Of a stretch of 64,000 nucleotides of DNA, positions 39,558 through 48,779 are shown piece after piece (position 1 is the first letter of the stretch; every line of letters starts with the position of its first letter). The translations under genes were made by a program, and so were the position numbers. The notes below the pieces were generated by a model, which saw nothing but the letters and a program-made list of their open reading frames with translations, was not told the origin of the DNA and ran no database searches. The DNA is from Streptomyces silvae (GTDB lineage: Bacteria > Actinomycetota > Actinomycetes > Streptomycetales > Streptomycetaceae): the NCBI RefSeq assembly GCF_016745505.1, contig NZ_JAERUC010000016.1, positions 1 through 64,000 on the forward strand, written 5' to 3'.

Positions 39558-40577
39558 TCAGCGGGGCGGGGCGGTGGATCCGCGGGGCACCAGGCGGGCC
39601 GCCGCGTCCTCGAAGCCGGGGGCCGATCCGTCGGCCACCATCGCCAGCAGCGTACGGGCCGCGTGGCTGCCGTACGCGGGGATGTCCCTGCTCAGCGCGG
39701 TCAGCGGGGGCCGCACGACGCGGGAGAGCTGGGAGTCGTCCCAGGCGACGAGCGAGAGGTCGGCGGGGACGTCCAGGCCCATCTCCTGGGCGACGGAGAG
39801 ACCGGCGACGGCCATGATGTCGTTGTCGTAGATGACGGCGGTCGGCCGCGTGGCCGAGCTGATCAGCCGGCGGGTGGCGTGCGCCCCCTCCTCGCCGGAG
39901 TAGTCGGTGTGGACCACCACCGGTTCGTCCAGGCCGAGTCCGGCGCTGATCTCGCGCTGCGCGCGGTCGCGCAGCTGGGTGTGGATCAGCTCGGGCAGCC
40001 CGGCGACCCGGGCGACCGAGCGGTGCCCGAGCGCGGCCAGGTACGTCAGGGTGTCGCGCAGGGCCGCCGAGTCGTCCGACCACACGGGGGTGAGGGTGCC
40101 GGCCGCCGAGGGGTGGCCGATCACGACGGCGGGCATGCCCAGCTCGGCGATGCCCTCGATGCGCGGATCGGGGGAGCGCACATCGGCGAGGAACACCCCG
40201 TCCACCCGGCCCTCGCCCCACCAGCGGCGGTACATCTCCAGCTCCTGCGCCGGGTCGGTGACGACCTGGAGGAGCAGGGCGCAGCCCCGGGCGGACAGCT
40301 CGGTCTCGATGCCGCTGATCAGCTCCATGAAGAACGGCTCGACCCCGAGCATCCTGGCCGGCCTGGACAGCGCGAGCCCCACGGTGTCGGCCCGGGCGTG
40401 GGTGAGGGCGCGGGCCGCGCTGTTGGGGCGCCAGCCGATCTCCTGCGCGATGGCCTTGATGGAGGCGCGGGTCGCGGGGGAGACACCGGGGCGGTCGTTC
40501 AGGGCGTACGACACCGCGACCTTCGAGACCCCGGCGCGGCGCGCGATGTCGGCGATCGTGGGGCGGTGCTTGGACAT
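39558..40577 (-). CDS. LacI-family transcriptional regulator of the oligosaccharide operon
   Basis: 339 residues. HTH at 6-28 (TIADIARRAGVSKVAVSYAL) with the hinge helix NSAARALTHARADTVGLAL (about 52-70), then a periplasmic-binding-like sugar-sensing core (GVEPFFMELISGIE, VIYDNDIMAVAG, PADLSLVAWDDSQLSR). GalR/LacI type, related to CebR in style. ATG at 40577 with GAGGT upstream. It faces the transporter operon; a CebR-like box and an AACCGG inverted repeat lie in the gap, so it probably represses both itself and the operon until a sugar binds. Confidence 0.9.
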   Translation of the reverse strand: MSKHRPTIADIARRAGVSKVAVSYALNDRPGVSPATRASIKAIAQEIGWRPNSAARALTHARADTVGLALSRPARMLGVEPFFMELISGIETELSARGCALLLQVVTDPAQELEMYRRWWGEGRVDGVFLADVRSPDPRIEGIAELGMPAVVIGHPSAAGTLTPVWSDDSAALRDTLTYLAALGHRSVARVAGLPELIHTQLRDRAQREISAGLGLDEPVVVHTDYSGEEGAHATRRLISSATRPTAVIYDNDIMAVAGLSVAQEMGLDVPADLSLVAWDDSQLSRVVRPPLTALSRDIPAYGSHAARTLLAMVADGSAPGFEDAAARLVPRGSTAPPR

Positions 40578-40589
40578 GCGACCTCGCTT

Positions 40590-40610
40590 AACCGGTTCGT
40601 GTTCAACCGG
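40590..40610. promoter_or_regulatory. Inverted repeat, possible autoregulatory operator
   Basis: AACCGGTT (40590-40597, perfect palindrome with central CG) followed by a second AACCGG (40605-40610) lies 13 bases before the LacI start. Central CG palindromes are typical LacI targets. Confidence 0.45.
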
Positions 40611-40689
40611 CATCCTAGCCGCAGCCCCCTGACCTCTGTCTTCCCCCGGGCGGTCCAGACCTCTGCGGGAACCCGGGAAAAAACTGGAA

Positions 40690-40703
40690 TGGGAGCGCTC
40701 CCG
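40690..40703 (+). promoter_or_regulatory. CebR-like operator box
   Basis: TGGGAGCGCTCCCG matches 13 of 14 bases of the known CebR box TGGGAGCGCTCCCA, which controls cello-oligosaccharide genes in streptomycetes. It ends five bases before the -35 of the operon promoter. Confidence 0.75.
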
Positions 40704-40708
40704 CTCCC

Positions 40709-40737
40709 TTGACACGATTCCGGGGCGCCCATACCTT
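40709..40737 (+). promoter_or_regulatory. Promoter of the oligosaccharide operon
   Basis: TTGACA (40709-40714), a 17-base spacer and TACCTT (40732-40737), a near-ideal housekeeping promoter. Start near 40744, leader about 56 bases. Confidence 0.75.
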
Positions 40738-40799
40738 CACGGCACTTACCCGGTTCAGTAACTCCGCTCGGCAGGGACGGCGGGGGAGAAGGAGGGGCT

Positions 40800-42533
40800 A
40801 TGGGTACGCGTACCCGGCTGCGGGTCACGACCGCACTCGCCGTGTTCACACTCGCCGCGACCGCGTGCACGGGAGGCGGCTCGGGGGCGGGCGGCACCGG
40901 CGGCACGGCCGGCAAGGGCGGCTCGCTGCCGCGCAACGAGACGCTCTACACGACCGGCACCCAGTGGGGGCCTCCGGCCAACTACAACCCGCTGCGCAAC
41001 TGGGACCACGCGACCGGCACCAAGGGACTGGTCTACGAGACCCTGTTCCACTTCGACCCGGACGAGGGCAAGCTGACGCCCTGGCTCGCCGAGTCGGGCA
41101 GCTGGACCGACGACAAGACGTACGAGGTGAAGCTGCGCACGGGCATCACCTGGGCCGACGGCAAGCCGCTGACCGCGAAGGACGTGGCGTACTCCTACGG
41201 CCTCGGCAAGATCGAGGCGTCCGCCTTCCACTCACTGTGGAGCTGGCTGTCCGACGCGAAGGCGGTGGACGACACCACGGTCCGCTTCACCTTCAAGGAG
41301 GCCCGCTACCAGGAGTGGGACTACACCCTCTACGGCCAGCCGGTCGTCCCCGAGCACATCTGGGGCTCGCGCACCGACGAGGACGTCCTCAACGGGGTCA
41401 ACGACAAGCCGGTCGGCACCGGGGCGTACAAGCTGAGGAGCAAGACCCAGGACCGGGTCGTCTGGGAGCGGCGCGACGACTGGTGGGGGACGAAGGCGCT
41501 GAGCATGACGCCGGCGCCCCGCTACATCGTCGACGTCTCCAACCCGAGCAACGAGGTCGTCATCGGCCAGCTGGGCCAGGGCCAGCTGGACCTCAGCAAC
41601 AACTTCCTGCCGGGTGCCTCCTCGCTGATCAAGAGCAAGAAGGTCGTGTCGTACTACGACAAGGCCCCCTACATGCTCTCGGCCAACACCGCCTGGCTGG
41701 TGCCCAACACCACCAAGAAGCCGATGGACGACGCCGCCTTCCGCCGGGCGCTCGCCGCGTCCGTCGACACCGGGAAGATCGTCAAGGGTGTGTACGGCGA
41801 GCTGGTCAAGCCCGCCTCGCCGACCGGTCTGCTGCCGCAGTGGGAGCAGTTCGAGGACAAGGCCCTCATCGCGGAGAAGGGCTTCACGCACGACCCCGCC
41901 GCGGCGAAGAAGGAGCTGGCGGAAGCGGGCTACAAGGACACGAACGGCGACGGTTTCGTCGAGAACAAGGACGGCTCCGCCCTGAGCCTGAAGCTCGCCG
42001 TGCCCTCGGGCTGGACCGACTGGATGGAGGCGGCCAAGGTCATCGCCGCCGGGGCCAAGGACGCGGGCATCAAGGTCACCACCGAGTTCCCCGACCAGAA
42101 CGCCCTGAACGAGCGGCGCGGCAAGGGTGACTTCGACCTCGTCATCAACAACGAGCGCCAGCTGTCCAACACCCCCTGGACGTACTACGACTACATCTTC
42201 CAGCTGCCGGTCCAGAAGCAGCAGAACACGGTCAACTTCGGGCGTTACGAGAACGAGGAGGCCTGGAAGCTGGTGCAGAAGCTGGGCGGGGTCAAGACCG
42301 ACGACACGGCCGGAATGAAGGCCGCCGTCTCGAAGATCCAGGACATCCAGCTCACCGAGATGCCCCTCATCCCGCTCTGGTACAACGGCCTCTGGTCGCA
42401 GTCCACCACCGGGACCTGGACGAACTGGCCGTCGGACGCCGAGGGTGCCCCGAAGGCGGCGCCGGCCCTGTGGCGCAACTGGCTGGAGATGGGCGGCTTC
42501 GAGACGCTCACGCAGCTGAAGCCCGCCAAGTAA
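40800..42533 (+). CDS. Lipoprotein substrate-binding protein, SBP_bac_5 family
   Basis: 577 residues. Signal peptide with lipobox ending TAC (Cys23), then a Gly-rich linker and a cluster-C (SBP_bac_5) binding protein, with LYTTGTQWGPPANYNPL near 50 and AESGSWTDDKTYEVKLRTGITW near 95 (in parts). This family takes dipeptides or nickel in many bacteria, but Thermotoga and Pyrococcus relatives bind cellobiose and mannobiose. The coupled beta-mannosidase and CebR-type box favour a beta-linked oligosaccharide here. ATG with AAGGAGG. Confidence 0.88.
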   Translation: MGTRTRLRVTTALAVFTLAATACTGGGSGAGGTGGTAGKGGSLPRNETLYTTGTQWGPPANYNPLRNWDHATGTKGLVYETLFHFDPDEGKLTPWLAESGSWTDDKTYEVKLRTGITWADGKPLTAKDVAYSYGLGKIEASAFHSLWSWLSDAKAVDDTTVRFTFKEARYQEWDYTLYGQPVVPEHIWGSRTDEDVLNGVNDKPVGTGAYKLRSKTQDRVVWERRDDWWGTKALSMTPAPRYIVDVSNPSNEVVIGQLGQGQLDLSNNFLPGASSLIKSKKVVSYYDKAPYMLSANTAWLVPNTTKKPMDDAAFRRALAASVDTGKIVKGVYGELVKPASPTGLLPQWEQFEDKALIAEKGFTHDPAAAKKELAEAGYKDTNGDGFVENKDGSALSLKLAVPSGWTDWMEAAKVIAAGAKDAGIKVTTEFPDQNALNERRGKGDFDLVINNERQLSNTPWTYYDYIFQLPVQKQQNTVNFGRYENEEAWKLVQKLGGVKTDDTAGMKAAVSKIQDIQLTEMPLIPLWYNGLWSQSTTGTWTNWPSDAEGAPKAAPALWRNWLEMGGFETLTQLKPAK

Positions 42534-42622
42534 GAGGGACCGCCGACTCCATGACCGCTCCGCCGTGCGCGCCCACCTGACCGTGCGCGCGCGGCGGGTC
42601 TCTCCACCAGGGGAGCACACCC

Positions 42623-43618
42623 TTGCGCCGCTACTTCGCCCGCAAACTCCTCATCTACGGACTGACGTTCGTCGTCGCCGTCACCGTCAACTGGATGATC
42701 CCGCGCTTCATGCCCGGCGACCCCGTCTCCGCCATGGTCGCCCGCGCCCGTGTCTCGCAGCCCGAGGCCGCCGAGGCGATGCGCACCTACTACAACAACC
42801 TGTTCGGCTTCGACGAGCCGCTCTGGCAGCAGTACCTGCACTTCTGGGGCGCGCTGCTCCAGGGCGACTTCGGGATCTCCATCTTCGTCTTCCCCACGCC
42901 CGTCGGTGACGTCCTGCTCGACGCGCTGCCGTACACGCTCGGCCTGATGATCCCGGCCGTCCTGCTCAGCTGGTTCGTGGGCAACTGGATCGGCGCGCTG
43001 TCCGCCCGCCGCAAGGTCCTCGACAACACGGTGCTGCCGGCCGGCTATCTGCTGACGGCCATGCCGTACATGTGGATCGCCGTCATCCTCGCCTGGGCGC
43101 TGGGTGCGAAGGCCGGCTGGTTCCCCATATCCGGGGGCTACAGCCTGGACATCCAGCCCGGCTGGAACGGCGACTTCGTGCTGGACGCGCTGCACCACTG
43201 GGTGCTGCCGTTCCTCTCACTGTTCCTCGTCGCGCTCGGCGGCTGGGCCATCGGCATGCGCAACATGATCATCTACGAGCTGGAGTCGGACTACTCCTCG
43301 TACCTCTCGGCCCTCGGGGCGCCCCAGCGGCTCATCCGCCGCTACGCGTTCCGCAACGCCGTCCTGCCCCAGGTCACCGGGCTGGCGCTCCAGCTCGGGG
43401 TGCTGGTCGCCGGGGCGCTCGTCACCGAGATCGTCTTCGCCTATCCGGGGCTCGGCTCACTGATCCTGGCCGCGATCCAGAACCAGGACTTCTTCCTGCT
43501 CCAGGGCGCCTTCCTGTTCATCGTCATCGGCGTGCTGATCGCCAACTTCCTCATCGACATCGTGTACGTCGTCGTCGACCCCCGTACCCGTACGGGCATG
43601 GCAGGAGGCACGTCATGA
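42623..43618 (+). CDS. ABC permease, DppB/OppB-like
   Basis: 331 residues from TTG with GGGGAG upstream. Six helices; the N-terminal signature FARKLLIYGLTFVVAVTVNWMI with PRFMPGDPVS is classic for the first Opp/Dpp permease, and the EAA loop reads YSSYLSALGAPQRLIRRYAFRNAVLP (near 240). ATGA overlap with the next gene. Forms the membrane channel with its partner. The other genes assign its role. Confidence 0.92.
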   Translation: MRRYFARKLLIYGLTFVVAVTVNWMIPRFMPGDPVSAMVARARVSQPEAAEAMRTYYNNLFGFDEPLWQQYLHFWGALLQGDFGISIFVFPTPVGDVLLDALPYTLGLMIPAVLLSWFVGNWIGALSARRKVLDNTVLPAGYLLTAMPYMWIAVILAWALGAKAGWFPISGGYSLDIQPGWNGDFVLDALHHWVLPFLSLFLVALGGWAIGMRNMIIYELESDYSSYLSALGAPQRLIRRYAFRNAVLPQVTGLALQLGVLVAGALVTEIVFAYPGLGSLILAAIQNQDFFLLQGAFLFIVIGVLIANFLIDIVYVVVDPRTRTGMAGGTS

Positions 43619-44520
43619 GCACACTGCCCGACCCGGCGCCCGAGGCGCCCTCCGCCGAGGTGCCCGTGGCCAAGCCCGGCCGCGAGTCGCTGCACTACGC
43701 GGTGCGCAACCCCAAGCTGATCATCGGCGTGACCCTGGTCCTGATCCTGCTCGCGATCGGCGTCGTCGGACCGATGCTGCTCGACAGCGGCAACCCCAAC
43801 GAGTACGTCGGCCCGCAGGCGGCCGCGCCGGACGGCACGTACTGGATGGGCACCACCACCTTCGGCCAGGACGTGTACGCGCAGTTCGTGCACGGGCTGC
43901 GCGCGACCTTCCTGGTGGGCGTCGTCGGCGGGGCCATCGCCGCCGTCATCGCCATGGTCGTCGGCTTCCTCGCCGGCTACCGGGGCGGAGTCACCGACGA
44001 GATCCTCAACATGCTCACCAACGTCGTCCTGGTGATCCCCGCCCTCGCCGTCCTGCTGATCATCAACGCCTACATGGGGGTGCGCAGCGTCGCCGTGCAG
44101 GGCCTGTTCATCGGCCTGACCTCGTGGCCCTGGGCGGCCCGCGCGATCCGGGCGCAGACGTTCTCCCTGCGGACCCGGGAGTTCGTGGACCTGGCCCGGC
44201 TCAGCGGCAGCGGCACCTGGCGGATCGTGTTCCGCGAGATCGCGCCCAACATGAGCTCGTACCTCTTCATGATGTTCATCCTGCTCTTCGGCGGGTCCAT
44301 CCTCATCGCCTCCTCGCTGGACTTCATCGGACTCGGCCCGACCGAGGGCGTCTCGCTCGGCCTGATGCTCCAGAGCGCCCAGCAGTGGAGCGCGCTCCAG
44401 CTCGGCATGTGGTGGTGGTTCATCCCGCCGGGGGCGGGGATCACCGCGATCGTCGGCGCGCTCTACGTCGCCAACGTGGGCCTCGACGAGGTCTTCAACC
44501 CGAAGTTGAGGGAGTCCTGA
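43615..44520 (+). CDS. ABC permease, DppC/OppC-like
   Basis: 301 residues. Hydrophilic head of about 35 residues, then six helices; the OppC N-terminal region and the DPDGTYWMGTT-like segment (APDGTYWMGTTTFGQDVYAQ) are visible, with EAA loop REFVDLARLSGSGTWRIVFREIAPN. Overlaps the first permease by four bases and ends four bases before the first ATPase gene. Second half of the membrane channel. Confidence 0.92.
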   Translation: MSTLPDPAPEAPSAEVPVAKPGRESLHYAVRNPKLIIGVTLVLILLAIGVVGPMLLDSGNPNEYVGPQAAAPDGTYWMGTTTFGQDVYAQFVHGLRATFLVGVVGGAIAAVIAMVVGFLAGYRGGVTDEILNMLTNVVLVIPALAVLLIINAYMGVRSVAVQGLFIGLTSWPWAARAIRAQTFSLRTREFVDLARLSGSGTWRIVFREIAPNMSSYLFMMFILLFGGSILIASSLDFIGLGPTEGVSLGLMLQSAQQWSALQLGMWWWFIPPGAGITAIVGALYVANVGLDEVFNPKLRES

Positions 44521-44524
44521 CGAC

Positions 44525-45469
44525 ATGACCCTGACCGTCAACGATCTGCGGGTCCACTACCGCACGCTGCGTGGCGAGGTCCGGGCCCTGGACGGCGTCG
44601 GCTTCGACCTGGCGGACGGCGAGATCCTGGGCCTGGCGGGCGAGTCCGGCTGCGGCAAGACCACCCTGGGCAAGTCCCTCATCCGGCTCGACGGCCGGAT
44701 GCGGCACGTGGGCGGCACCGTGACGCTGGACGGCGACGAACTGCCGCTCTCCGACGACCGGGCGATGAACGCCTACCGCTTCCACAAGATCTCACTCGTG
44801 CCCCAGTACTCGATGAGCGCGCTCAACCCGACCCGCCGCATCGGCCGCATGATCCGCGAGCTCCTCGCCTCCCGGGGCGTCACCGTGGACACGGACGAGC
44901 TCCACCGGCGGCTCGCCCTGGTCGGCCTGGAACGCGACGTCCTGGACCGCTATCCGATCGAGCTGTCCGGGGGAATGAAGCAGCGCGCCGTCATGGTGAT
45001 CTCCACGCTGCTCGACCCGTCCGTCCTCATCGCCGACGAGGTCACCTCGGCCCTGGACGTCTCCAACCAGCAGGCGGTCGTGGGCGCCCTCACGGGGCTC
45101 CGCGACAAGGGCCTGGTCACCAGCATGATCTTCGTGACCCACGACCTCGGACTGACCTCGCACATCGCCGACTCGATCATGGTGATGTACGCGGGCAAGC
45201 TCGCCGAGAAGGCCCCCACGAGGACGCTCACGACCGAGCCCCGCCACCCGTACACGAAGATGCTGATCGGCTCGCTGCCCCAGGTAGGCGCCCGCTACAA
45301 GGACAAACCGCTCAGCGGCATCGAGGGCTCCCCGCCCTCCCTGCTCAACCCGCCGCTCGGCTGCCGCTTCCGCGACCGCTGCCCGCTCGCCGACGCCCGG
45401 TGCGCCGAGGAGCCGCCCGTCGTCGAGATCGCCCCCCGCCACTCCGTCGCATGCTGGAAGGCGGCCTGA
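44525..45469 (+). CDS. ABC ATPase, DppD/OppD-like
   Basis: 314 residues. Walker A GESGCGKTT (about 41-49), LSGGMKQR signature, Walker B VLIADEVTSALD and the H-loop VTHD. The C-terminal oligopeptide/dipeptide extension is present (GSLPQVGARYKDKPLSGIEGSPPS, CRFRDRCPLADARCAEEPP) with four Cys that may bind Fe-S or Zn. Its stop overlaps the next start by one base (TGATG). Having its own ATPases, the transporter does not need the shared MsiK used by CUT1 sugar systems. Confidence 0.92.
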   Translation: MTLTVNDLRVHYRTLRGEVRALDGVGFDLADGEILGLAGESGCGKTTLGKSLIRLDGRMRHVGGTVTLDGDELPLSDDRAMNAYRFHKISLVPQYSMSALNPTRRIGRMIRELLASRGVTVDTDELHRRLALVGLERDVLDRYPIELSGGMKQRAVMVISTLLDPSVLIADEVTSALDVSNQQAVVGALTGLRDKGLVTSMIFVTHDLGLTSHIADSIMVMYAGKLAEKAPTRTLTTEPRHPYTKMLIGSLPQVGARYKDKPLSGIEGSPPSLLNPPLGCRFRDRCPLADARCAEEPPVVEIAPRHSVACWKAA

Positions 45470-46362
45470 TGCTGACCCTCGACCGTGTCACCAAGACCTT
45501 CCGGGCCGGCGCCTTCGGCGGCGGCTCCACCACCGCCGTCGACCGGGTCTCCTTCGAGGCGGCCCCCGGCGAACTGGTCTCGCTCATCGGCGAGAGCGGC
45601 AGCGGGAAGTCCACCATCGGCCGCATGGTCCTCGGCCTCACCCGGGCCAGCTCCGGCAGCCTCACCCTGGACGGCGAACAGGTCCGGCCGGGCAAGGACT
45701 TCTACCGCCGGGTCCAGGGCGTCTTCCAGGACCCCTTCAGCTGCTACAACCCCGTCTTCAAGGCCGACCGCGTCTTCGCCCTCGTCCGCCGCGCCTACCA
45801 CCCGGGCGTCCCGGACAAGGAGTGGGCCGACCGCGTGGAGAAGGCCGTACGGGACGTACGCCTGGACCCCGGGCAGGTGCTCGGCCGCTACCCGCACCAG
45901 CTCAGCGGCGGCCAGCTCCAGCGCCTGCTGATCGCCCGCGCCCTCCTGCTCGACCTGCGTTTCCTGGTCGCCGACGAGATCACCAGCATGCTCGACGCCT
46001 CCACCCGCATCGATGTGCTCAACCTCCTCGCCGGCCTCAAGGAACGCGGCCTCGGCGTCCTCTACATCACCCACGACCTCTCGCTGGGCACCTACCTCGC
46101 CGAGCGGACCGTGGTGCTGAGGAACGGCCGGGTCGTCGAGCGGGGCGACACCCAGAAGGTCTTCGGCAACCCGCTCCACCCCTACACCCGCACCCTCCTT
46201 GCCGCCGTGCCCCGGCTCAACGAGCCCTGGACGTCCGCCGAACCCGTGGAGGTCTGCGCCTTCCACGAGGGAGGCGCGCCGGACACCGACCTGTACGAGA
46301 CCGAGCCGGACCACTTCGTCGCCTGCGCCGGACTCCCCGACTGCGGAAGGACCTCCGCGTGA
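45469..46362 (+). CDS. ABC ATPase, DppF/OppF-like
   Basis: 297 residues from the ATG at 45469; a longer frame upstream is shadow. Walker A GESGSGKST, then FQDPFSCYNPV, LSGGQLQR, FLVADEITSMLD and ITHDLSLGTY. The shorter C terminus than DppD is usual for the F subunit. Partner ATPase of the same transporter; GTGA overlap with the GH2 gene. Confidence 0.92.
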   Translation: MLTLDRVTKTFRAGAFGGGSTTAVDRVSFEAAPGELVSLIGESGSGKSTIGRMVLGLTRASSGSLTLDGEQVRPGKDFYRRVQGVFQDPFSCYNPVFKADRVFALVRRAYHPGVPDKEWADRVEKAVRDVRLDPGQVLGRYPHQLSGGQLQRLLIARALLLDLRFLVADEITSMLDASTRIDVLNLLAGLKERGLGVLYITHDLSLGTYLAERTVVLRNGRVVERGDTQKVFGNPLHPYTRTLLAAVPRLNEPWTSAEPVEVCAFHEGGAPDTDLYETEPDHFVACAGLPDCGRTSA

Positions 46363-48779
46363 CCCCTCGCCACCTGCCCCTGCACGACGGCTGGACGCTC
46401 GGCGCCGACGGCCCCGTCCCGGTGGGACTCCCCGCAGGCGGCGTCCCGGCGGCCGTCCCCGGCTGCGTCCACACCGACCTGCTGGCCGCCGGGCTCATCG
46501 ACGACCCCTACCTGGACGACAACGAGAACCGGCTCGGCTGGATCGGCCGCACCGACTGGACGTACCGCACCACGTTCGACTGGTCCGACGACGGCCACGC
46601 CTTCACCGACCTGTGCTTCGACGGCCTCGACACCGTCGCCACGGTCCTGCTCAACGGCACCGAGGTGGGCTCCACGGCCAACCAGCACCGGAGCTACCGC
46701 TTCCCCGTGCGTCCTCTGCTGCGCGAGGGCCCCAACACCCTGGTCGTGCGCTTCACCGCCCCGTACACCTACGCCGAGGCGCTCCGCGACAAGCTCGGCG
46801 ACCGGCCCGGCGCGTACACCGAGCCGTACAACTTCATCCGCAAGATGGCCTGCAACTTCGGCTGGGACTGGGGGCCGACGCTGGTCACCTCCGGCATCTG
46901 GCGGCCGGTCGCGCTGGAGTCCTGGACCGGCCCGCGGCTCGCCGGGGTGAAGGTCGTCGGCGACCTCGACGGGGACGGGGTGCCGCGCCTGTCCGTCACC
47001 CTGGACGTGGACCGCCCCGGCGGCGCGGCGCTGTCCGGCTCGGTCGAGGTGCTGGGCGCGTGCGCCGTCTTCGCCGCCGACGCCGGCGAGGACGCGCATC
47101 GTCTCTCGGTCACCCTGTCCGTCCCCCAGGCCGAGCGGTGGTGGCCGCACAGCCACGGCGAACAGCCCCTGTACGACGTCACCGTCCGCCTGGGCGAGGA
47201 GGTCGCCTGGATCGGCCGGACGGGCTTCCGGGGCGTCACCCTGGAGCGCGAGGCGTTCCGTATCTCCGTCAACGACGAGCCCGTCTTCGTACGCGGGGTC
47301 AACTGGATCCCCGACGACTGCTTCCCCGCCCGGATCACCCGGCAGCGGATCTCCGACCGCCTCGACCAGGCGCTCGCCGCGGGCGTCAACCTGGTCCGCG
47401 TCTGGGGCGGCGGCCTCTACGAGAGCGACGACTTCTACGAACTCTGCGACGAGAAGGGGCTGCTGGTCTGGCAGGACTTCCCGTTCGCCTGCGCCGCCTA
47501 CCCGGAGGAGCAGCCGCTGTACGACGAGGTGGCCGCCGAGGTCCGGGAGAACCTCGTCCGGCTCGCCCCGCACCCCTCGCTGGTGCTGTGGTGCGGCAAC
47601 AACGAGAACCTGGAGGGCCACGCCGACTGGGGCTGGCAGGAGAAGCTGGAGGACCGCACCTGGGGCCACGGCTACTACCACGAGCTGCTGCCCGCCCTCT
47701 GCGCCGAGACGGACCCCTCCCGCCCGTACTGGCCGGGGTCGCCCTACTCAGGCTCCCCGGAGCTGCCCCCGCAGGACCCCACGCGCGGCACGGTCCACCT
47801 CTGGGACGTCTGGAACCGGGTCGACTACCGGCACTACGCCGACACCGCGCACCGCTTCGTCGCCGAGTTCGGCTTCCAGGGCCCGCCCGCGTACGCCACG
47901 CTGCGCCGCGCGGTCAGCGGCCCGCTCGCGCCGGACTCCCCGCTGCTCGCCCACCACCAGAAGGCGGAGGACGGCGACGCCAAGCTGCTGCGGGGGCTGG
48001 GCGACCACCTGCCGCGGCCCGACGGCTCCTCCTTCGACGACTGGCACTGGCTCACCCAGCTGAACCAGGCCCGCGCGGTCGCCTTCGGCATCCGCCACTT
48101 CCGCTCGCACAGCCCGTACTGCACGGGCTCGATCGTCTGGCAGCTCAACGACTGCTGGCCGGTGGTCTCCTGGGCGGCCGTGGACGGCGACGGCCGCCGC
48201 AAACCGCTCTGGTACGCCCTGCGCCAGGTGTACGCGGACCGGCTCATGGCCGTACGCGACGGCGCCCTGCACCTGGTCAACGACTCCGCCCGGCTCTGGG
48301 AGGGCGCGCTGCGGCTGACCCGGCGCTCCCTGGACGGCACCGTCCTGGCCGAGGAGACGGTCGCGGTGGGGACGGCGGCGCGCGGGGTCACCCGGGTCCC
48401 GCTGCCGCCCTCGGTCGCCGAGCCGGAGGACAGCACCCGGGAGGTGCTGGTGGCGGAGCTGGGCGAGCAGCGGGTGGTGGAGTTCTACGAGGAGGACACC
48501 CGGGTCGCGCTGCCGCCGGCGCGATACCGGGCGACGGTGACCCAGGGTGACGAATCGGGCATCGGCTACCGGGTCACCGTGACGGCGCTGACGCTGCTGC
48601 GCGACCTCGCGCTCTTCCCCGACCGGCTGGATCCGGCGGCCGAGGTGGACGACATGCTCGTCACCCTGCTGCCCGGTGAGAGCGCCGTCCTCCACGTCAC
48701 GGGCGCGGTGCTGGAGGAGCCGGAGGCACTGCTCTCCCGGCCCGTCCTCCGGTGCGTCAACGACGCCGTCGGGGACTGA
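46359..48779 (+). CDS. GH2 beta-mannosidase, coupled to the transporter
   Basis: 806 residues from GTG with GGAAGG upstream. Glycoside hydrolase family 2 layout: sugar-binding jelly roll (1-180), beta-sandwich (about 190-295), TIM barrel (300-600), and C-terminal sandwich. The acid/base is Glu416 in WCGNNE and the nucleophile is Glu503 in FVAEFGFQG; both are intact. NFGWDWGPTLVTSGIWRP (about 166-183) is typical of beta-mannosidases rather than beta-galactosidases. No signal peptide, so it cleaves imported oligosaccharides in the cytoplasm, releasing mannose. Confidence 0.9.
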   Translation: MTPRHLPLHDGWTLGADGPVPVGLPAGGVPAAVPGCVHTDLLAAGLIDDPYLDDNENRLGWIGRTDWTYRTTFDWSDDGHAFTDLCFDGLDTVATVLLNGTEVGSTANQHRSYRFPVRPLLREGPNTLVVRFTAPYTYAEALRDKLGDRPGAYTEPYNFIRKMACNFGWDWGPTLVTSGIWRPVALESWTGPRLAGVKVVGDLDGDGVPRLSVTLDVDRPGGAALSGSVEVLGACAVFAADAGEDAHRLSVTLSVPQAERWWPHSHGEQPLYDVTVRLGEEVAWIGRTGFRGVTLEREAFRISVNDEPVFVRGVNWIPDDCFPARITRQRISDRLDQALAAGVNLVRVWGGGLYESDDFYELCDEKGLLVWQDFPFACAAYPEEQPLYDEVAAEVRENLVRLAPHPSLVLWCGNNENLEGHADWGWQEKLEDRTWGHGYYHELLPALCAETDPSRPYWPGSPYSGSPELPPQDPTRGTVHLWDVWNRVDYRHYADTAHRFVAEFGFQGPPAYATLRRAVSGPLAPDSPLLAHHQKAEDGDAKLLRGLGDHLPRPDGSSFDDWHWLTQLNQARAVAFGIRHFRSHSPYCTGSIVWQLNDCWPVVSWAAVDGDGRRKPLWYALRQVYADRLMAVRDGALHLVNDSARLWEGALRLTRRSLDGTVLAEETVAVGTAARGVTRVPLPPSVAEPEDSTREVLVAELGEQRVVEFYEEDTRVALPPARYRATVTQGDESGIGYRVTVTALTLLRDLALFPDRLDPAAEVDDMLVTLLPGESAVLHVTGAVLEEPEALLSRPVLRCVNDAVGD

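Follow-up and report, generated by a model that had tools for sequence, protein, structure and literature searches.

A predicted beta-manno-oligosaccharide import operon in Streptomyces silvae with putative control by a local LacI regulator and CebR

The gene cluster and its relatives

We analysed a stretch of 64,000 nucleotides of Streptomyces silvae DNA (NCBI RefSeq assembly GCF_016745505.1, contig NZ_JAERUC010000016.1, positions 1 to 64,000), referred to as a whole as the window. Between positions 39558 and 48779 a gene for a LacI-family regulator faces an operon encoding an Opp-type importer with two ATPases and an enzyme of glycoside hydrolase (GH) family 2. With a probability of roughly 75%, we propose that this operon imports beta-1,4-manno-oligosaccharides, splits them to mannose and is doubly repressed, with CebR acting alongside the LacI of the cluster. 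The seven genes have the order and positions given in a first-pass annotation of the sequence, and Pfam bore out their families. The features are as follows.

39558..40577, minus strand: LacI-family regulator, 339 aa, divergent; Pfam LacI and Peripla_BP_3; recognition helix AGVSKVAVSYALN
40587..40598, plus strand: CTTAACCGGTTC, 9 nt ahead of the start codon of the local LacI gene and predicted to be an operator for its product; 17 of 18 genus orthologues have it exactly
40690..40703, no strand assigned: CebR box TGGGAGCGCTCCCG, 13 of 14 positions (one mismatch); supported by further sites in the genome and by conservation in relatives
40709..40714, plus strand: -35 element TTGACA; the 18 aligned genus sequences all have TTGAC
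40732..40737, plus strand: -10 element TACCTT; pattern match and genus alignment
40745..40756, plus strand: CTTACCCGGTTC, a further predicted LacI operator, placed 7 nt past the -10 element where transcription is expected to start; shared by 18 of 18 genus orthologues
40800..42533, plus strand: SBP_bac_5 binding protein, 577 aa, predicted lipoprotein (Cys23) and predicted beta-mannoside binder; Pfam and solved relatives
42623..43618, plus strand: permease 1, OppB/Opp4B-like; Pfam BPD_transp_1 and nearest NCBIfam models
43615..44520, plus strand: permease 2, OppC/Opp4C-like; Pfam BPD_transp_1 and nearest NCBIfam models
44525..45469, plus strand: ATPase 1; ABC_tran and oligo_HPY, Walker A GESGCGKT, LSGGM, Walker B
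45469..46362, plus strand: ATPase 2; ABC_tran and partial oligo_HPY, Walker A GESGSGKS, LSGGQ, Walker B
46359..48779, plus strand: GH2 enzyme, 806 aa, predicted beta-mannosidase; Pfam Glyco_hydro_2_N2, candidate acid/base Glu416 (GNNE) and nucleophile Glu503 (AEFGFQ)

The tight coupling described for the operon was also found. Three start codons overlap the preceding stop codon, those of permease 2 (ATGA, 43615), ATPase 2 (TGATG, 45469) and the GH2 enzyme (GTGA, 46359), and only 4 nt separate permease 2 from ATPase 1. The binding protein and permease 1 are 89 nt apart, and this gap (42534-42622) holds a GC-rich hairpin of -42.3 kcal/mol that might set the ratio of binding protein to permease. 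The hairpin was set aside as weak evidence (z -1.81; 11 of 200 shuffles were equally good).

Two sets of relatives were used. An orthologue of the binding protein (E <= 1e-90) was present in 18 of 392 genomes of the genus, S. silvae counted in. Scanning public genomes yielded 319 relatives, and the best 80 of these (the named loci) were taken for comparison. These comprise 20 loci titled Streptomyces or [Kitasatospora] papulosa and 60 others, from Nonomuraea, Planobispora, Herbidospora, Microbispora and kin, which we place in the Streptosporangiaceae, and from one unclassified metagenome-assembled genome (L151). The two sets share species, and the closest named proteins and loci are from Streptomyces, with 94-95% identity. 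Both permeases and both ATPases were complete in 77 of the 80 named loci. The GH2 gene followed within 700 bp in 63 of these 77, and a divergent LacI gene was found in 55 of the 77 loci with at least 1.6 kb of upstream sequence, counts that are affected by the contig ends truncating some loci.

Importer type, enzyme and likely cargo

The best solved relatives of the binding protein were the Thermotoga proteins TM1223/TM1226 with bound mannobiose and mannohexaose (4pft, 4pfu, 4pfy), which matched over the full length with 38% identity. This match scored twice that of the cellobiose protein 2o7i (221 bits). Absence of a family from the list of solved relatives does not count against that family. 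The operon thus has the composition of an Opp-type mannoside importer of the TM1223/TM1226 kind: an SBP_bac_5 protein nearest to mannoside-bound structures, with two BPD_transp_1 permeases and two oligo_HPY ATPases encoded beside it. A CUT1 importer of the CebEFG/MsiK kind, with an SBP_bac_1 or SBP_bac_8 protein and a shared ATPase encoded elsewhere, was not what we found here, since the binding protein is SBP_bac_5 and the operon has two ATPases of its own. Solved relatives and Pfam therefore support the view of the first-pass annotation that a self-powered manno-oligosaccharide importer is coupled to a beta-mannosidase-like GH2 enzyme, and transport of beta-mannosides is a well-supported prediction.

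The enzyme belongs to GH2, its nearest relatives are beta-mannosidases, and both candidate catalytic glutamates are present, with Glu416 aligning with a Glu in 6bye. Pfam support was strong for the N-terminal domain only. We predict the enzyme to be a beta-mannosidase.

Public annotation and the nearest NCBIfam models name the importer parts oligopeptide or nickel transporters, and ATPase 1 passes the NCBIfam domain model oligo_HPY (TIGR01727), as would suit a peptide or nickel importer standing beside a GH2 gene by chance. However, the binding protein and the permeases reached no NCBIfam cut-off, mannoside proteins rank first both by sequence and by fold, and the GH2 gene is next to the importer in 63 of the 77 loci where the importer is complete. 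We give such a chance neighbourhood very little credence. It is also unlikely that the main cargo is gluco-manno- or cello-oligosaccharides and not pure mannosides. That cargo would directly account for the CebR box, as such boxes mark cellulose genes in this genome, and 2o7i is among the relatives of the binding protein, at half the score of the mannoside proteins.

Two regulatory sites and their readers

The CebR box with 13 of 14 positions and the promoter with a 17-nucleotide spacer were both recovered. TGGGAGCGCTCCCG is the sole site in the window with at most one mismatch. The promoter TTGACA-N17-TACCTT (40709-40737) begins 5 nt past the end of the box and is the sole match to TTGACA-N17-TANNNT in the window, and none of 100 shuffles had one. 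With up to three mismatches the box was not enriched in the window (4 sites against a shuffle mean of 8.4), so that its weight rests on the sites in the genome and in the relatives. In the genome (7.96 Mb) 17 sites had at most one mismatch, 10 of them exact, as compared to 2 for the reversed pattern used as control. Intergenic TGGGAGCGCTCCC was found in 18 of 18 genus orthologues, 17 ending in G and one in C. Among the named loci the box was exact in 45, within one mismatch in 69 and within two in 71. At up to one mismatch there were 72 boxes in the 400-bp stretches before the binding protein gene (32 kb) and 6 in the remaining 1.6 Mb of these loci. The pattern of the box is the CebR site given in PMC4898821 and is independent of the 80 loci.

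A TGGGAGCGCTCCCA-type box therefore stands at the promoter, and CebR is present in the genome. Beyond the window there are 16 box sites; we inspected their surroundings and searched 20 neighbouring proteins, none of them from site C43 (in our contig numbering), against Pfam. The neighbours included GH9, two AA10, GH12, GH6, GH48 and SBP_bac_8 proteins, a GSDH protein with CBM2, a GH5 endoglucanase (421 bits to 2cks), and a further GH5 beside an alpha-1,3-glucanase-type gene. Another neighbour was a GH5 beta-mannanase, with 635 bits to 4fk9, which we take to be the SirexAA-E mannanase, and 590 bits to 3wsu, named a beta-mannanase. Three sites lay in the cebR cluster (LacI, GH1, two permeases, SBP_bac_8), and at site C35 the neighbour tested was an acetyltransferase. 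The glucose/sorbosone dehydrogenase with CBM2 (box at C188:40344) is possibly a partner of a lytic polysaccharide monooxygenase, and the box at C167:49919 precedes a CBM2 protein of 922 aa that also matches Sortilin/Vps10 and may be a xyloglucanase. A partial GH26-type match (35.5 bits; C164:78480-78695) lies about 14 kb past the end of the window on the same contig and may be a second mannan enzyme. In PMC12772271, SsCebR is described as regulating the beta-mannanase SACTE_2347 and as having cellobiose and mannobiose as ligands. The conserved box supports the suggested cross-control with cellulose use, and if CebR reads it, as is likely, uptake of mannan sugars would be tied to the breakdown of cellulose.

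CTTAACCGGTTC and CTTACCCGGTTC were missing from the first-pass annotation, which had considered the local LacI as a reader of the CebR box. In all of the 80 named loci but L087, L088 and L134, hence in 77, a -35/-10 pair is followed 7-8 nt past its -10 element by the start of a CTTA[ATC]CCGGTTC-like element, variants allowed. This is where transcription should begin, in the Streptomyces loci as in the others. Exact TTA[ACT]CCGGTTC was found on either strand in 73. The 400-bp stretches before the binding protein gene held 92 such elements against 2 in the rest of the loci, one of these just past the 400-bp cut; the pattern was learnt from these same loci, so that the enrichment is partly circular. 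In the genome, CTKAHCCGGTTC had 15 matches as compared to 2 for the reversed control. The CTTA form occurred twice, both times at this locus (40587 and 40745), which makes the element likely to be the operator of the local LacI.

The recognition helices differ as well. The local LacI has SKVAVSYALN, and the other homologues read SKVAVSYALN or SKGAVSYALN; CebR of the same genome has GRGTASRVIN. The best solved relative of the local LacI was 4o5a (270 bits) and that of CebR was 5ysz (352 bits), presumably T. fusca CelR. Counted from the centre, NT-6 is G in the CebR box and T in the second element, by a numbering that we applied ourselves and checked against the lac operator. In the LacI family an Arg at AA-20 is linked to a G at NT-6, according to PMC2978694. 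The helix of the local LacI is without this Arg and does not fit the CebR box.

These data bear on whether a single regulator, the local LacI, uses the TGGGAGCGCTCCC box with no part for CebR. The box does sit in the divergent region of the LacI gene itself, and 17 of the 18 genus orthologues have a consistent CCCG variant of it. The helix, on the other hand, is without the expected Arg, the second element is better conserved and is fixed at +1, and seven loci that keep LacI have no box before the binding protein gene (L138, L141, L143, L146, L148-L150). We consider a single regulator decidedly unlikely. A CebR-like paralogue, in place of CebR, is not a likely reader of the box either. Genomes do hold several CebR-like LacI genes, and in the genome of L093 one of them (G446:C8) is preceded by an exact box at a distance of about 180 bp. 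The S. silvae genome, however, has 31 LacI genes besides the local one, and of the nine that were examined cebR alone had a box in its promoter; it is also CebR that has 5ysz as its best solved relative. Action of the local LacI at the CebR box is thus improbable, and the regulator probably has its own operator, one at each of the two divergent promoters, judging from conservation and helix residues.

A palindrome of 12 bp, GACAACGTTGTC, was common to two of three GH92 stretches and occurred at six places in the genome (C139:57989-58963, C35:63477, C203:144307, C191:105792, C60:14793 and C196:65845). Three of these are on contigs with GH92 genes, and at C139 the motif stands about 130 bp before a LacI gene. 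We take GACAACGTTGTC to be the SsManR motif, and the sites are probably the SsManR-type alpha-mannosidase regulon of the strain. In the window it was not found even at one mismatch. The LacI system of GACAACGTTGTC is distinct from the local one, and identity of the local LacI with SsManR was ruled out by this absence, given that GACAACGTTGTC is the SsManR motif.

The local LacI is not always encoded next to the importer. In 14 genomes without an adjacent LacI gene a homologue was found elsewhere, with at least 67% identity in 13 and 55% in one (that of L128). In L153, L154 and L172, where the importer loci have no GH2 gene, the homologue (62-73%) is divergent to a gene with a GH2-like N-terminus. 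CTGAACCGGATA lies between the two genes in L153 and L154; in L172 no site of this type was found there at two mismatches. Several other genomes have an GTTATCCGGTTC-like site directly before the start of the distant homologue. These arrangements fit a predicted trans-acting LacI that would control both import and hydrolysis. Importers without adjacent LacI in L105, L106, L112 and other Nonomuraea retain the +1 element, often with an GTTATCCGGTTC-like site at the start codon of the LacI homologue elsewhere. S. silvae itself has a LacI paralogue (L065, C132:7895-8893; 43% identity, helix ..SVSFALN) with CTGAACCGGTTTAG upstream, an operator of the same type. A constant link of the homologue to GH2 was ruled out, as most of the 14 genomes had no GH2 gene within 1.5 kb upstream of it.

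The position of the CebR box was compared in the 68 named loci that have a -35/-10 pair, the element and a box; L087, L088, L134 and nine loci without a box were excluded. In all 18 Streptomyces loci the box nearest to the binding protein gene precedes the element by 55-57 bp, whereas in all 50 others it follows the element at 14-148 bp. When every box with up to two mismatches was counted, the Streptomyces loci had boxes upstream only (18 of 18), whereas 42 of the 50 others had them downstream only and eight on both sides. At up to one mismatch, 47 of these 50 were downstream only and three two-sided. The eight two-sided loci are of Nonomuraea type (L094, L097, L105-L107, L110, L114, L116), and their upstream box lies 79-99 bp before the operator, with one mismatch in three and two mismatches in five. 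The local element thus stays fixed while the CebR box differs in side between the groups, and a clean change of side was ruled out by the eight two-sided loci. An ancestor with two CebR boxes is possible.

These layouts suggest, tentatively, a promoter with two keys and AND logic. The mannoside LacI would be fixed at +1 across the families, with CebR upstream of the -35 element in Streptomyces and in the leader downstream of +1 in the Streptosporangiaceae. The two families would then have placed mannoside import within the cellulose regulon in two different arrangements, through separate gains or by retaining different boxes of a two-box ancestor. The two-sided loci lowered our estimate for this AND gate slightly, and we now hold it to be somewhat less probable than even.

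Several observations count against the proposal as a whole, besides the partial circularity already mentioned. The structure predicted for the binding protein from 17 sequences is of mediocre quality (pLDDT, the predicted local distance difference test, of 72), and Glu416 of the GH2 enzyme aligns with a Cys in 5n6u, perhaps an engineered mutant. Elsewhere in the genome the operator pattern has 13 matches of the CTGA form. In nine of the 80 loci no box was found upstream of the binding protein gene even at two mismatches, although in one of them, L138, a box lies 77 bp past the assumed start. We had expected the box and CebR to be lost together. Among 20 genomes tested, 7 without a box at two mismatches, 2 with a two-mismatch box and 11 with at most one mismatch, all kept a CebR homologue (E <= 1e-70) and 8-18 exact boxes, which ruled out joint loss; the 7 boxless ones had 8-17 exact boxes. 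The link of CebR to the operon is therefore dispensable. Genomes with boxless loci also have several CebR-like paralogues that might bind the box instead, and in 10 of the 14 genomes without adjacent LacI the homologue (at least 67%) had no GH2 gene within 1.5 kb upstream. Finally, a box upstream of the -35 element could act other than by AND logic.

Proposed working and known systems

Outside the cell, mannan would be cut by the GH5 beta-mannanase, which is likely secreted and is encoded by a gene that likewise bears a CebR box. The binding protein would capture the manno-oligosaccharides, and the permeases with their two ATPases would import them with no need for the shared ATPase MsiK. Inside, the GH2 enzyme, likely cytoplasmic, would trim them. 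The local LacI would occupy CTTACCCGGTTC at +1 and CTTAACCGGTTC before its own gene and be released by a mannoside (mannobiose or mannose), while CebR on TGGGAGCGCTCCCG would join the operon to the cellulose regulon and be released by cellobiose or mannobiose. The operon would then be fully expressed only with both repressors released.

The Thermotoga maritima importers TM1223/TM1226 share the SBP_bac_5 binding protein, and they too have Opp-type permeases and two ATPases in the operon. They differ in that here GH2 is coupled in the operon and the promoter has LacI and CebR instead of the Thermotoga regulation, which is by a ROK-type ManR. With Streptomyces CebEFG-BglC, controlled by CebR and powered by MsiK, the cluster shares the CebR box and import followed by intracellular hydrolysis; the CebE-like protein, however, belongs to SBP_bac_8/1 and the ceb cluster showed no ATPase gene, whereas here an SBP_bac_5 protein comes with two dedicated ATPases. 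Reportedly described by Ohashi in 2021, SsManR of Streptomyces sp. SirexAA-E is said to be mannose/mannobiose-responsive beside CebR, a similar control alongside CebR, but its presumed motif GACAACGTTGTC is absent from the window. The mannan cluster manR-manHIJ of Bacillus sp. N16-5, as far as the accessible part of PMC4792470 describes it, likewise has a LacI regulator, a manno-oligosaccharide ABC importer and intracellular enzymes; its importer is of the CUT1 type without an ATPase of its own, and no second control of the CebR type was found in that text.

The suggestion that the system is undescribed was weakened accordingly. The kind of transporter is known from the ligand-bound Thermotoga structures, and a link of CebR to mannan is published (PMC12772271). 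The operon in Actinobacteria, the two-repressor promoter and the difference in box side were not found in the literature searched, which lay mostly outside subscription papers, so that an earlier description is possible. Within this known kind of transporter, the putative double control appears to be a new variation.

The findings assign a likely substrate to a transporter that is publicly annotated as one for peptides or nickel, and suggest that Streptomyces and Streptosporangiaceae have a second way of importing hemicellulose sugars, one that is self-powered. Plant walls contain mannans alongside cellulose, so joint control would make physiological sense. The promoter also offers a compact natural test of a sugar-specific and a global cellulose repressor acting on one promoter, in which the box switches side and the other operator stays fixed.

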